Below are positions 28,719-31,995 of a stretch of DNA of 64,000 nt, piece after piece. Location of the stretch: assembly GCA_002747035.1 (NCBI GenBank), contig PDRZ01000015.1, positions 149,452 through 213,451 of the forward strand. The letters are read 5' to 3'. Numbering within the stretch: the first letter of the stretch is position 1; every line of letters begins with the position of its first letter. Origin of the DNA: Rhodobacterales bacterium (GTDB lineage: Bacteria > Pseudomonadota > Alphaproteobacteria > Rhodobacterales > Rhodobacteraceae). Made by a program: the position numbers and the translations under genes. The notes beneath the pieces were generated by a model. The model was not told where the DNA came from, did not search any database, and saw nothing but the letters and a program-made list of their open reading frames with translations.

Positions 28719-29618
28719 TCAGGTCGAGGTCAGCGCCGGAATTGACAGGCGTTGGCCCACGCGGATGCGGTCCGGGCTCGACAGGAATTGCCGGTTGGCG
28801 TTGAAGATCGTCGAATACTGCCCGGCATCGCCATAGAACTTCTGGGCGATCGACCCCAGGCTGTCGCCGGTCTGAACCGTATAGAAGTTATACTGCACGG
28901 TTTTACCGGCACGCTGGATCACGCGCACCTCAACCCCTTCGCCACCGGCGATGACTGCGGGAGAAACGGCCTCGGGTGCTTTGCCGGTGGATTTCCTGAC
29001 CAGCGCGGCCAGAAGGGTGGTGGTATCAACCTTGCCTTCCGAGGTGCGCAGCGCACCGGGCACCTGGACCTGGCCACGATCTGCGGCCTCGTTCAGCAGC
29101 GCGTCGATATAGGAATCCGACTGTCCCTGGGCCAGCGCCTGAACAATCAGGGTTTCCATGCTGACATGCGCAGGCGTGTCGGTCTGAGTGGCGTTCAGCC
29201 CGGCCAGCACAGAGGAGGTGAGTCCGCGCAGAGCGTTGTCCTGCTGGGGTGCGCTGGTGGCAGCGGTCGGTTTGACTCCCAGTTCGGCCAGCAGAGAAGA
29301 GGTCAACGACAACAGCGCCGCATCGTCAGCGGGTGCGGGAGCAGGCGCAGCGGGTTGGACCCCCAGCCCGGCGAGGACCGAATTTGTCATGGCCTCAGAC
29401 TCTTGCGATCCGGGCGATTCGGTGGCGGGTGCGGGAGCGGCGACCACGGGCGCAACCGGCGTGGTCAGATCGGTGAGGTTGGTTTCAGCCCGCGCCACCT
29501 GGGCCGGAACCAAGGCGGCGGCGTCTGCCTGATCGGCATCATCCGAGCGTGGTTGCACCAACAACAACCCCATGGTGACAGTCAGAAAGGCGGCGGCGAT
29601 GGCAAGAATGCGCAGCAT
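28719..29618 (-). CDS. Membrane-anchored LysM domain protein (first paralogue)
   Basis: Protein of 299 aa with an N-terminal membrane anchor (ILAIAAAFLTVTMGLLLVQP), a long Ala/Pro-rich linker and a C-terminal LysM domain (YTVQTGDSLGSIAQKFYGDA followed by NRQFLSSPDRIRVGQRLSIP). LysM binds peptidoglycan, so it probably spans from the inner membrane to the wall. The linker holds three imperfect repeats of the type LTSSVLAGL(G/N) spaced about 35 residues (near 80, 110 and 137). Its anchor and LysM domain resemble the protein at 30586. The function is not known. Confidence 0.8.
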   Translation of the reverse strand: MLRILAIAAAFLTVTMGLLLVQPRSDDADQADAAALVPAQVARAETNLTDLTTPVAPVVAAPAPATESPGSQESEAMTNSVLAGLGVQPAAPAPAPADDAALLSLTSSLLAELGVKPTAATSAPQQDNALRGLTSSVLAGLNATQTDTPAHVSMETLIVQALAQGQSDSYIDALLNEAADRGQVQVPGALRTSEGKVDTTTLLAALVRKSTGKAPEAVSPAVIAGGEGVEVRVIQRAGKTVQYNFYTVQTGDSLGSIAQKFYGDAGQYSTIFNANRQFLSSPDRIRVGQRLSIPALTST

Positions 29619-29641
29619 GTCAGCTCTCCTTTAGCGTAAAT

Positions 29642-30319
29642 TCAGGACGTGGGTTGCGTGGTGGTCAGCCCGAGCAGGAGCCAAAGCTGCATTCCGCCCC
29701 GATAGTATTTGATTTTCCCGGCGGGATAGCCCACGCCGATCAGATTGCGGATCGCGCGCGGGCTTTGATCGCACCACGGACCGTTGCAGAACAACAGAAG
29801 GTCACGGGCCGACGCAAAGTCCCAGCCATTCCCCCGTTGCCGCGCCCCCAGCGCCTTGAGGATTTCGTCGCGGTAAGGGTTGGACGGTTCCAGCGTGGAA
29901 AACGGCACATTCACTGCGCCGGGGATCGTGCCCTTGGCAAACCATGCGGGCATCCGGCTGTCGATCAACAGCCCCTTGCCCGCGGTCACGGCGGTGTCGA
30001 GAAAGTCCATCACCTCGATCTCGCCCACGGTTTCAACGCCGGGTGCGGCGGAAATCGGGTGGATACAGAAGGGCGGACAGGGGCGCGAGGTCTTGGTGAA
30101 CTCGGTATCCAGCCGGTTCGCTGTGTCCTGAATGCGTTCGATCACCAGTTCTTTGCCATTCACGATGATGGATCGCGAGGCTATTTCTGGCGTGATCTTG
30201 ACTTCTTGGGCCAGAGCGTGTTGTGGCACAAGCGCGGGCGCAAGAAGCGCGACGGACAGGCCAAACAAGGTTGGTGTTATTTTGATTCGCGAAATGGCGC
30301 GGCGCAATGGTCGCATCAT
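29642..30319 (-). CDS. Exported rhodanese-like domain protein
   Basis: About 225 aa. The N-terminus has a signal-like segment (TLFGLSVALLAPALVPQHAL, cleavage near ALA-QE). The rhodanese-type domain includes LLIDSRMPAWFAKGTIPGAV and the loop LLFCNGPWCDQSPRAI, whose FCNGPWC holds the expected catalytic cysteine plus a second one. An upstream PCPPFC pair adds two more cysteines. It may act in periplasmic sulfur or thiol chemistry (inference). Two adjacent ATGs (30319, 30316) could start it. Its promoter is loaded with GANTC sites and it is flanked by LysM proteins. Confidence 0.75.
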   Translation of the reverse strand: MMRPLRRAISRIKITPTLFGLSVALLAPALVPQHALAQEVKITPEIASRSIIVNGKELVIERIQDTANRLDTEFTKTSRPCPPFCIHPISAAPGVETVGEIEVMDFLDTAVTAGKGLLIDSRMPAWFAKGTIPGAVNVPFSTLEPSNPYRDEILKALGARQRGNGWDFASARDLLLFCNGPWCDQSPRAIRNLIGVGYPAGKIKYYRGGMQLWLLLGLTTTQPTS

Positions 30320-30388
30320 GACTTTACCCCCAATGGACAGGCGCATCGTTATTGCTGGCAGGCAGATGCACTTTGACTGCTCATACAA

Positions 30389-30418
30389 GATATAGGCGAA
30401 TCAGAACGAATCGGTCAA
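30389..30418 (-). promoter_or_regulatory. Predicted promoter of the rhodanese gene
   Basis: On the minus strand TTGACC (30413-30418), an 18-base spacer and TATATC (30389-30394). Two GAATC sites exactly 10 bases apart (30398-30402 and 30408-30412) lie within the spacer. The predicted leader is about 60 bases. Confidence 0.6.
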
Positions 30419-30482
30419 CATCCTCCGATTCGCTGATTCGCGAATCAGCGGTGAGGAGACGCGAATCCCTTGAGATGATTCG
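30397..30482. promoter_or_regulatory. Cluster of seven GANTC sites around a 20-bp perfect palindrome
   Basis: GAATC/GATTC occurs seven times in 86 bases (starting at 30398, 30408, 30427, 30435, 30442, 30463, 30477). Every copy sits in the wider hexamer CGAATC or GATTCG. The centre is the perfect palindrome CGCTGATTCGCGAATCAGCG (30431-30450). GANTC is the CcrM methylation site of alphaproteobacteria and is read by GcrA at some promoters. The hexamer conservation beyond GANTC suggests an additional binding protein. Confidence 0.7.
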
Positions 30483-30516
30483 AAATTTTTTTCCGCAGAG
30501 AACTGTGTTTCAGCCC

Positions 30517-30537
30517 AAAAAACCCCGGATTTCGGGG
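30517..30537 (-). terminator. Rho-independent terminator of the second LysM gene
   Basis: On the minus strand CCCCG-AAATC-CGGGG (30523-30537) is followed by six T (30517-30522). It lies 50 bases after the LysM stop and separates it from the rhodanese promoter. Confidence 0.85.
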
Positions 30538-30585
30538 AAAAACCCGGGTTTCGGCCAAGTGGTCAGCGTGATTGGCAGCGTTTTA

Positions 30586-31371
30586 TCACTGAACCGGAAG
30601 GGTCAGAACCTGACCAGCGCGCAGATCGTCGGCATGGTTTAACAGGTGCCGGTTGGCTTCAAAAATCTGTTGGAACCGCGTTGCGTTGCCAAGGGTTTTG
30701 ACGGCGATACTCTGTAGTGTGTCGCCGGGTTGAACACGATAGGTCCGCACGCCGTTTTGCGGCGATGTGGCGCGATCGGTCGCCCCGTCGGCCTCGGCGC
30801 GCAGGGCCGAAAGGTAAGGTGTGTTTTCCGCGCTTGTTTCCACAGCGCCTGGTTCGGTGACCGCGCGGGCCACGGTGGCGTGCAACAGGCTTCCCGGCTG
30901 TCCGGGTTCGACACGCGCGCCCTTGGCCGTATCCAGGGCGCGCAAAACGTCCCATGTGGCGGCGCGTTGATCATCCGGGGCGGAGGAAAAGGCAAGATCG
31001 GGGGCTGTGGTCGCAGTGGAGGTGACCACAGTTTCGCGGGTGTTGTCCGGGGTTGATTGGTTCAACGCCCGGGCCACGACCGACGCCAATGCCGCAGGGG
31101 TGCTGTCGGGCGTCGCGGTCACTTTGCCAAGCCGGTCGGCGATCGGCTTAGGGGTCGGGTCCAGCGGGTCCAGCGGGGTATGGGCGTCGCGGGTCACGGT
31201 GTTCGGCCCCGTAACGACCTGGGTCTCTGCCCGGTCAATGGCCGCCGCGGTTTCCGCGCGTTCCCGCCCGCCCGGCTGCAACAGCAACAGCCCCACGGTG
31301 ACAACAAGAAACCCCATCACGATCACAAGGATCGGTGCCAGAGGCGAGGCGTTCTGGGGGGTGGGGTTCAT
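30586..31371 (-). CDS. Membrane-anchored LysM domain protein (second paralogue)
   Basis: Protein of 261 aa with an N-terminal anchor (LVIVMGFLVVTVGLLLLQPG), a low-complexity Thr/Ala/Pro linker and a C-terminal LysM domain (YRVQPGDTLQSIAVKTLGNA ... HADDLRAGQVLTLPV). The anchor shares the pattern F(L)xVTxGLLLxQP with the 28719 protein, pointing to an old duplication, though the linkers are unrelated. The start codon overlaps the stop of a possible small upstream gene (ATGA). Likely a peptidoglycan-binding envelope protein; no enzyme domain is visible. Confidence 0.8.
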   Translation of the reverse strand: MNPTPQNASPLAPILVIVMGFLVVTVGLLLLQPGGRERAETAAAIDRAETQVVTGPNTVTRDAHTPLDPLDPTPKPIADRLGKVTATPDSTPAALASVVARALNQSTPDNTRETVVTSTATTAPDLAFSSAPDDQRAATWDVLRALDTAKGARVEPGQPGSLLHATVARAVTEPGAVETSAENTPYLSALRAEADGATDRATSPQNGVRTYRVQPGDTLQSIAVKTLGNATRFQQIFEANRHLLNHADDLRAGQVLTLPVQ

Positions 31372-31502
31372 GGGCGTGTTCCTTGTGTGGATGAGGTCAC
31401 GGTCTGGCCGGGTTGCAGCCAGTTTTGCAAACCGCCCCGGTCATGGCGCAGGACAAGATGGCAGAGCCATCGGCGCGCGGTCAGGCGTTTTCTGGATTGC
31501 AT
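31368..31502 (-). CDS. Possible small gene coupled to the LysM gene
   Basis: A 44-codon frame (MQSRKRLTARRWLCHLVLRH...) on the minus strand whose TGA overlaps the LysM ATG as ATGA. GC-rich third positions and the coupling geometry argue for translation, perhaps as a leader peptide. The ribosome-binding site is weak, and I recognise no family. Confidence 0.3.
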   Translation of the reverse strand: MQSRKRLTARRWLCHLVLRHDRGGLQNWLQPGQTVTSSTQGTRP

Positions 31503-31995
31503 CGTTTTTACTCGTAAGCCTCGGCTGGGCAGGCCACCTGATTTGGGGCACTTGGTTTTATTGCGCCGAGATGTAGTGGAGCGACCCACGGGACGTCAAG
31601 AGGTGATCCGCGTTCGAGGATCGGGATTCACTACGTGATTCCAAACGTTTACCTTTTGGGGTGTTTCCAGTCCGTGCCGCAACCAGAGGTTCGGCCCGGG
31701 TCTTTTGCGTCTCGGGTGCGTCTCGGTGTACACCGCTTTGGGAAAGCCGTGCGGCGGGTCGCACATGCTGGGGCGCGGTTGCGGCCTTTATGCCGACGGG
31801 AGGTAAAATCCAATGATCCCGATCAGTATGAGCCTGCAAGAGTCCAAAGGGCGGAACGATCTGCGCCAGATCCTGTTCAGGTTTGAGAACAAGCGCGGCT
31901 TTTCTGCCTTTGTCGGGGAGCGGCTATGGCTGGCGTGACCGGGTCCATGGTGCCACTGCGGGCCGCGCGGTTGGGTGGCCCGTTTGGGCGCGACG
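31372..31995. other. Gene-poor stretch between the LysM gene and folC
   Basis: About 620 bases without a recognisable conserved gene. It holds the possible coupled small frame on the minus strand (31368-31502) and a possible 41-codon frame on the plus strand (31813-31938). No hairpin with a T-run was seen after folC. Confidence 0.5.
31813..31938 (+). CDS. Possible 41-aa small protein
   Basis: ATG at 31813 is preceded by GGGAGGT at nine bases, a strong ribosome-binding site. The peptide starts MIPISMSLQESKGRNDLRQ and ends FSAFVGERLWLA. Third positions are GC-rich like real genes here. It opposes the folC 3' end and has no recognised family. Confidence 0.35.
   Translation: MIPISMSLQESKGRNDLRQILFRFENKRGFSAFVGERLWLA

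Follow-up and report, generated by a model that had tools for sequence, protein, structure and literature searches.

The rhodanese locus and its GANTC array

The window, that is, the whole stretch of DNA analysed here, comprises 64,000 nucleotides of a Rhodobacterales bacterium (G000:C4:149452-213451 in the source genome, an assembly of 2.52 Mb that is 77.7% complete), and its feature of interest is a dense array of GANTC sites on the predicted promoter of a gene encoding a rhodanese-domain protein. The minus-strand gene order around it is accD, folC, a LysM protein gene, the array, the rhodanese gene and a second LysM gene, beyond which zapE is convergent. The rhodanese gene (29642–30316, minus strand; Pfam PF00581, E 1.5e-9), for which orthologues were detected, is immediately followed by the second LysM gene (28719–29618, minus strand). 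An earlier, sequence-only reading of this DNA had proposed an exported rhodanese between two LysM proteins. The rhodanese domain and both LysM proteins are borne out, whereas export is judged by eye only, from an N-terminus that looks like a signal peptide.

Judged by its letters, the rhodanese promoter is of the sigma-70 type, with a predicted -35 element TTGACC (30413–30418, minus strand) and a predicted -10 element TATATC (30389–30394, minus strand), or alternatively CTATAT at 30390–30395. The arrangement first described, TTGACC-N18-TATATC with two GANTC sites one helical turn apart in the spacer, is present (sites at 30398 and 30408, 10 bp apart), and the alternative TTGACC-N17-CTATAT corresponds to the commonest spacing among relatives.

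GANTC starts at positions 30398, 30408, 30427, 30435, 30442, 30463 and 30477, which amounts to seven sites in 84 bp, and reading the letters confirms the earlier statement that each of them is embedded in CGAATC or GATTCG. Six of the seven also fit the heptamer YGAKTCK. The resulting boxes are given without a strand. Box 1, CGAATCA (equivalently TGATTCG; 30397–30403), and box 2, CGAATCG (equivalently CGATTCG; 30407–30413), lie in the -35/-10 spacer one helical turn apart, centred at about -17/-18 and -27/-28 of the predicted start, respectively. Box 2 forms with box 3, CGATTCG (30426–30432), a conserved inverted pair that flanks TTGAC, 19 bp start to start. Farther upstream are box 4, TGATTCG (30434–30440), box 5, CGAATCA (30441–30447), box 6, CGAATCC (30462–30468), and box 7, TGATTCG (30476–30482). 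All fit YGAKTCK except box 6, which contains GANTC and falls outside the heptamer.

Across the window, GANTC was observed 98 times vs 247 expected, so the array is surrounded by DNA that avoids this sequence. The highest number of sites per 84 bp was five in 500 dinucleotide shuffles of the window and six in 20,000 random placements of the 98 sites. With no shuffle or placement reaching seven, the cluster exceeds random expectation, as had been claimed. Upstream of the first LysM gene (31625–31641), two GATTC sequences lie 12 bp apart, neither of which fits YGAKTCK. The source genome also carries a second rhodanese paralogue, 42% identical (L017; G000:C13:74705-75280), whose locus has at most three GANTC sites per 100 nt.

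Conservation at rhodanese and rpoD promoters

Orthologous loci were sought in one genome each from 84,980 species, and 80 loci were kept of 257. The closest set consisted of 36 promoters, namely that of the window and those of the 35 top loci of the 80 (L032–L067 minus L046, which was left out of all counts on this range as its contig name is identical to that of L045); the remaining 44 were L068–L111. The nearest named gene matches were to Marimonas, Mameliella, Maritimibacter and similar genera, and the two with lineage checked belong to Rhodobacterales. In the 250 nt upstream of the gene, the 36 loci held 139 GANTC sites in 9,000 nt vs 280 in the 355,825 nt that make up the rest of these loci, a 19.6-fold difference. 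At least three sites occurred in 28 of the 36 promoters and at least two in 32. The scan of orthologous promoters that had been proposed, with lack of conservation as the outcome speaking against the idea, thus found the array conserved, and the letters between the boxes differ among loci that keep it. Gene context is maintained, as a LysM relative follows the rhodanese gene in 35/35 loci compared and folC precedes it in 29/35 within the stretch retrieved per locus.

None of the 44 more distant homologues, which as labelled in their records come from gamma-, beta- and other alphaproteobacteria, Campylobacterota and distant Rhodobacterales, had three or more YGAKTCK heptamers in the upstream 350 nt (275 nt in one), and in an earlier ortholog set, which was too distant, the 19 loci listed besides the window's own each had at most three GANTC sites per 100 nt. 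Two of the records call for a remark on labelling. L045 and L046, which share a contig name and match, come from metagenome-assembled genomes labelled 'Roseobacter' and 'Flavobacteriia', the latter of which looks mis-binned, and L076 is labelled Oceanobacillus, yet has this mostly proteobacterial gene.

Promoter elements recur together with the sites. A -35/-10 pattern was matched in 31 promoters (L036, L043, L054, L063 and L065 fall outside this list), with the spacing TTGACn-N17-hexamer in 28 of them. The spacer contains one or more GANTC sites in 25 of the 31 and two in 15, or 16 when one overlapping the -10 element is counted. The conserved core can be written as CGAATCA-N7-TTGAC-YGATTCG-N3-YGATTCG-C-CTATAT.

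The unit that these promoters share is, from sequence comparison, the heptamer YGAKTCK and not the palindrome on which the sequence-only reading had centred the array. That palindrome, CGCTGATTCGCGAATCAGCG (30431–30450, no strand assigned), is real, perfect and 20 bp long, with boxes 4 and 5 as its left and right halves, and it occurs once in the window. Its 16-bp core has exactly one copy in the source genome, and the core sequence GATTCGCGAATC was not found in any of the 35 related loci compared; the palindrome was therefore rejected as the key element and as the centre of the system. In one orientation, YGAKTCK was fitted by 123 of 139 array sites vs 52 of 280 background sites (Fisher p ~3e-45, calculated over sites from related species that are not independent). 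In Caulobacter crescentus, GcrA activation has been tied to methylated GANTC in the context TGATTCG and, more broadly, YGAKTCK (PMC7987155).

A second array type was found just upstream of rpoD. Of 149 family genomes searched for the pattern, 27 had a match, which in many cases was a single, chance-like site; a second search was made in 11 chosen genomes, and both pointed to the dnaG–rpoD interval. The rpoD gene was present in 59 of 61 genomes, and the best-scoring 30 of 60 matches were taken, the source genome included. Among the 24 rpoD loci scored (L199, L204, L209, L210, L213 and L214 were left out, their start codon not being located), the upstream 130 nt contained at least three GANTC sites in 22, two in one and none in one, a density 24 times that of the remainder of the loci. 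YGAKTCK was fitted by 79 of 85 array sites vs 33 of 92 background sites. The source genome carries such an array itself (G000:C11:52036-52077; L157). The rpoD arrays (L157 and L186–L215) often read CGAATCA-N14-TGATTCG, followed a few bases on by CGAATCR. Direct pairs of the form TGATTCG-N0-30-TGATTCG numbered 17 in the 11 genomes, with ten at rpoD (in nine genomes), two at rhodanese promoters and five elsewhere. The rpoD array may be of greater weight than the rhodanese array. Since CtrA has been reported bound at the rpoD promoter in Brucella (PMC2877005), a connection between rpoD and cell-cycle control is already on record for another member of the class.

Several further observations concern the rhodanese array and its surroundings. 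In L118 (G098:C8) and L133 (G112:C16), the array and promoter downstream of folC persist without a following rhodanese gene, with about 200–240 bp to the next convergent gene, an arrangement that may reflect a lost gene or a small RNA. In two genomes (L114 and L164), a three-box array stands beside dctP-like genes of TRAP transporters and response-regulator or LysR-like genes. The rhodanese 5' leader (window positions 30317–30388, and the leaders of L032–L067) can frequently be folded into a stem-loop that has CTGCCA close to its loop; the letters of the stem vary and the pairing is kept, and alignment-based folding of this stem-loop group is weak. In seven relatives the leader instead has CTGTCGAGCA and a short stem ahead of the ribosome site. 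An Rfam search of window positions 29500–31500 gave zero matches up to E 1.

Candidate mechanism and rival explanations

We consider it likely that the array is a GcrA/CcrM-type sigma-70 promoter in an unusually dense, multi-box form, and on its sequence we group it as a dense variant of this known class of promoters, without treating its membership as proven. GcrA (PF07750) was detected in every one of the 12 genomes searched, among them the source genome (E 3.4e-46), in which its N-terminal DNA-binding domain aligns to solved GcrA structures (7ye1, 5yiu) with 38 of 45 residues identical, as counted from the alignment. A CcrM-type protein with a RAMA domain was present in 10 of 10 relatives searched. 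In each of the three relatives searched for it, rnhB shares a contig with the RAMA gene, at a distance of up to about 2 kb; rnhB is absent from the source assembly and present in all 14 control genomes.

What the promoters retain was examined through the one-letter neighbours of YGATTCG, counted against shuffles in 33 non-redundant rhodanese promoters (L036, L054 and L066 were omitted as near-duplicates) and 24 rpoD promoters. At rhodanese promoters, the exact heptamer occurred 96 times vs 1.9 in shuffled sequences, YGAGTCG 13 vs 0.7 and YGATTCT 5 vs 1.1, and neighbours that break GANTC totalled 26 vs 22.5. At rpoD promoters, the corresponding values were 73 vs 0.9 for the exact heptamer, 2 vs 0.4 for YGAGTCG and 13 vs 11.4 for the GANTC-breaking neighbours. 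From these counts, the feature retained is GANTC, mostly in YGAKTCK context. The sequence-only reading had left a choice between a methylation-sensitive switch and the array of a repressor recognizing CGAATC. Conservation, the YGAKTCK context and the presence of gcrA in the genome favour the former, while the repressor branch is disfavoured by GANTC-breaking near-copies at about chance level.

If this assignment is correct, the adenines in GANTC would be the targets of CcrM methylation, and GcrA, together with sigma-70 RNA polymerase, would recognize the YGAKTCK boxes in their methylated form, both within the -35/-10 spacer and immediately upstream of it. Its binding would aid opening of the rhodanese–LysM promoter, with activation rather than repression as the expected outcome and the two genes presumably read as a single transcript. 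By analogy with Caulobacter, activation would fall to the two boxes in the spacer, near -17/-18 and -27/-28, and those farther out could provide extra occupancy or hold a poised complex; with several boxes, more GcrA would probably be bound locally. Once the replication fork has passed, all seven sites would stay hemimethylated until they are remethylated by CcrM, and for that reason transcription would be expected to track replication of the locus.

Several points weigh against this reading. We did not find ccrM in the incomplete source assembly with either a RAMA domain search or a CcrM query; because the neighbouring rnhB is missing too, the ccrM stretch probably lies outside the assembly. 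Four of the 36 orthologous promoters (L043, L063, L065 and L067) contain no GANTC, and since the three of these four genomes that were searched have gcrA, the presence of gcrA does not guarantee an array. Among the 31 promoters with a -35/-10 pattern, six have a spacer without GANTC. The site counts span related species and are not independent. YGAATCG, which lies outside YGAKTCK, is enriched at rhodanese promoters as well (5 vs 0.8 shuffled). In Caulobacter, GANTC lies within 50 bp of only 31% of GcrA-bound cell-cycle starts (PMC4287350), and in Brevundimonas (B. subvibrioides) the extended motif was not seen to be preferred, apart from a slight bias towards C ahead of GANTC (PMC7987155). Finally, the core spacings are rather fixed (19 and 10 bp at rhodanese promoters, often 21 bp at rpoD), as an ordinary operator would show, and the class of neighbours that breaks GANTC at position 3 is in weak excess at rhodanese promoters (11 vs 5.9 shuffled).

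These last two points bear on a rival explanation, according to which a methylation-independent transcription factor binds a CGAATCA/TGATTCG array operator overlapping the promoter and represses or activates it. The fixed core arrangement (CGAATCA-N12-YGATTCG, then 10 bp), its overlap with the -35 and -10 elements and the recurrence of inverted and direct pairs would all suit such a factor. Operators, however, usually tolerate single changes and should leave a halo of imperfect copies, yet the one-mismatch heptamers that destroy GANTC stay near chance in sum at both promoters, while changes inside YGAKTCK are enriched, and the heptamer matches the published GcrA motif (PMC7987155). We therefore regard an ordinary operator as unlikely. 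A sulfide repressor of the SqrR/BigR type was considered separately, prompted by the rhodanese domain and by a putative ATTC-N8-GAAT motif, and was dropped, as the ATTC..GAAT spacings are by eye not N8; this motif was not found in the available text of PMC9143464 or PMC10451225.

A local methylation-protected switch, whose sites would stay unmethylated because a blocker such as MucR covers the array, finds a parallel in Caulobacter, where some GANTC sites are unmethylated where MucR binds (PMC7987155). The site motif is nevertheless the one tied to GcrA activation, and a ROS/MUCR-family gene was detected in one of 11 genomes searched and not in the incomplete source assembly. For this scarcity MucR was dropped, and such a switch appears very improbable. 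Clustered GANTC could also serve repair, replication or chromosome organization instead of transcription, given that GANTC becomes more numerous near the replication origin in four orders of Alphaproteobacteria (PMC9836097), but we give this little credence, since the array lies within a sigma-70-like promoter in register with TTGAC and the -10 element and a second array type stands just upstream of rpoD. Chance or local repeat expansion, to which the short and similar boxes might point, can practically be discarded in view of the shuffles and placements and of arrays kept in loci that differ between the boxes.

Extending the GcrA/CcrM reading, we tentatively propose a rewiring of this system in Rhodobacterales, from ctrA to two dense multi-box arrays at rpoD and rhodanese–LysM. 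GcrA would then govern its own partner sigma-70, and the boxes, all hemimethylated at once, might act jointly as a sharp sensor of fork passage and not as a one-site switch; we hold this to be possible, though doubtful. The conserved dense YGAKTCK arrays offer concrete promoters at which methylation-timed transcription in Rhodobacterales can be tested. If GcrA acts at these promoters, the cell-cycle methylation signal would reach the housekeeping sigma factor. The arrays also make it likely that the apparently exported rhodanese is connected with the cell cycle and the envelope.

Comparison with known systems

A published description of such arrays was not found in the literature searched, from which subscription papers were mostly absent and which included the available text of PMC7987155, PMC4287350, PMC3667746, PMC2877005, PMC8116508, PMC9836097 and PMC3973325. 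The closest likeness is to the GcrA/CcrM sigma-70 promoters of C. crescentus (ctrA P1, mipZ and podJ), with which the array shares GANTC in the -35/-10 region, the YGAKTCK context, gcrA in the genome and rarity of GANTC elsewhere. In that species, starts whose GANTC lies between -10 and -35 fire at 40–60 min, and the site lies at -29 (or -28) in ctrA P1 and at -24 in podJ P2 (PMC4287350). GcrA protects fully methylated ctrA P1 from -35 to -10, and changing GANTC to GCNTC cuts the mipZ, podJ, flaY and pleC promoters by 60–80%, but not that of CCNA_00697 (PMC3667746). Both full methylation and hemimethylation have been reported as the active state in Caulobacter (PMC8116508).

The number of sites sets the present arrays apart. 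More than one GANTC within 50 bp was found in 11 of 96 GANTC-bearing cell-cycle starts of Caulobacter (PMC4287350), whereas up to seven occur here in 250 nt. The mipZ promoter has two juxtaposed sites (PMC3667746); here up to seven precede rhodanese–LysM, with sister arrays at rpoD. The arrays also resemble the GcrA targets predicted across Alphaproteobacteria by inference from YGAKTCK conserved upstream of orthologs (PMC7987155). The targets predicted there include ccrM, ftsZ, ctrA, popZ and others; 'rpoD' appears nowhere in the main text, and no rhodanese was seen in the text available. As that work used one representative per order, a family-specific array would escape its prediction.

Within the same order, a survey of CtrA and GANTC in Rhodobacterales counted GANTC upstream of genes and, because few ctrA promoters have GANTC, suggested that methylation-timed transcription is perhaps of little weight in this group (PMC8116508). 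The rpoD and rhodanese arrays suggest that such control may instead have its role at promoters other than that of ctrA.
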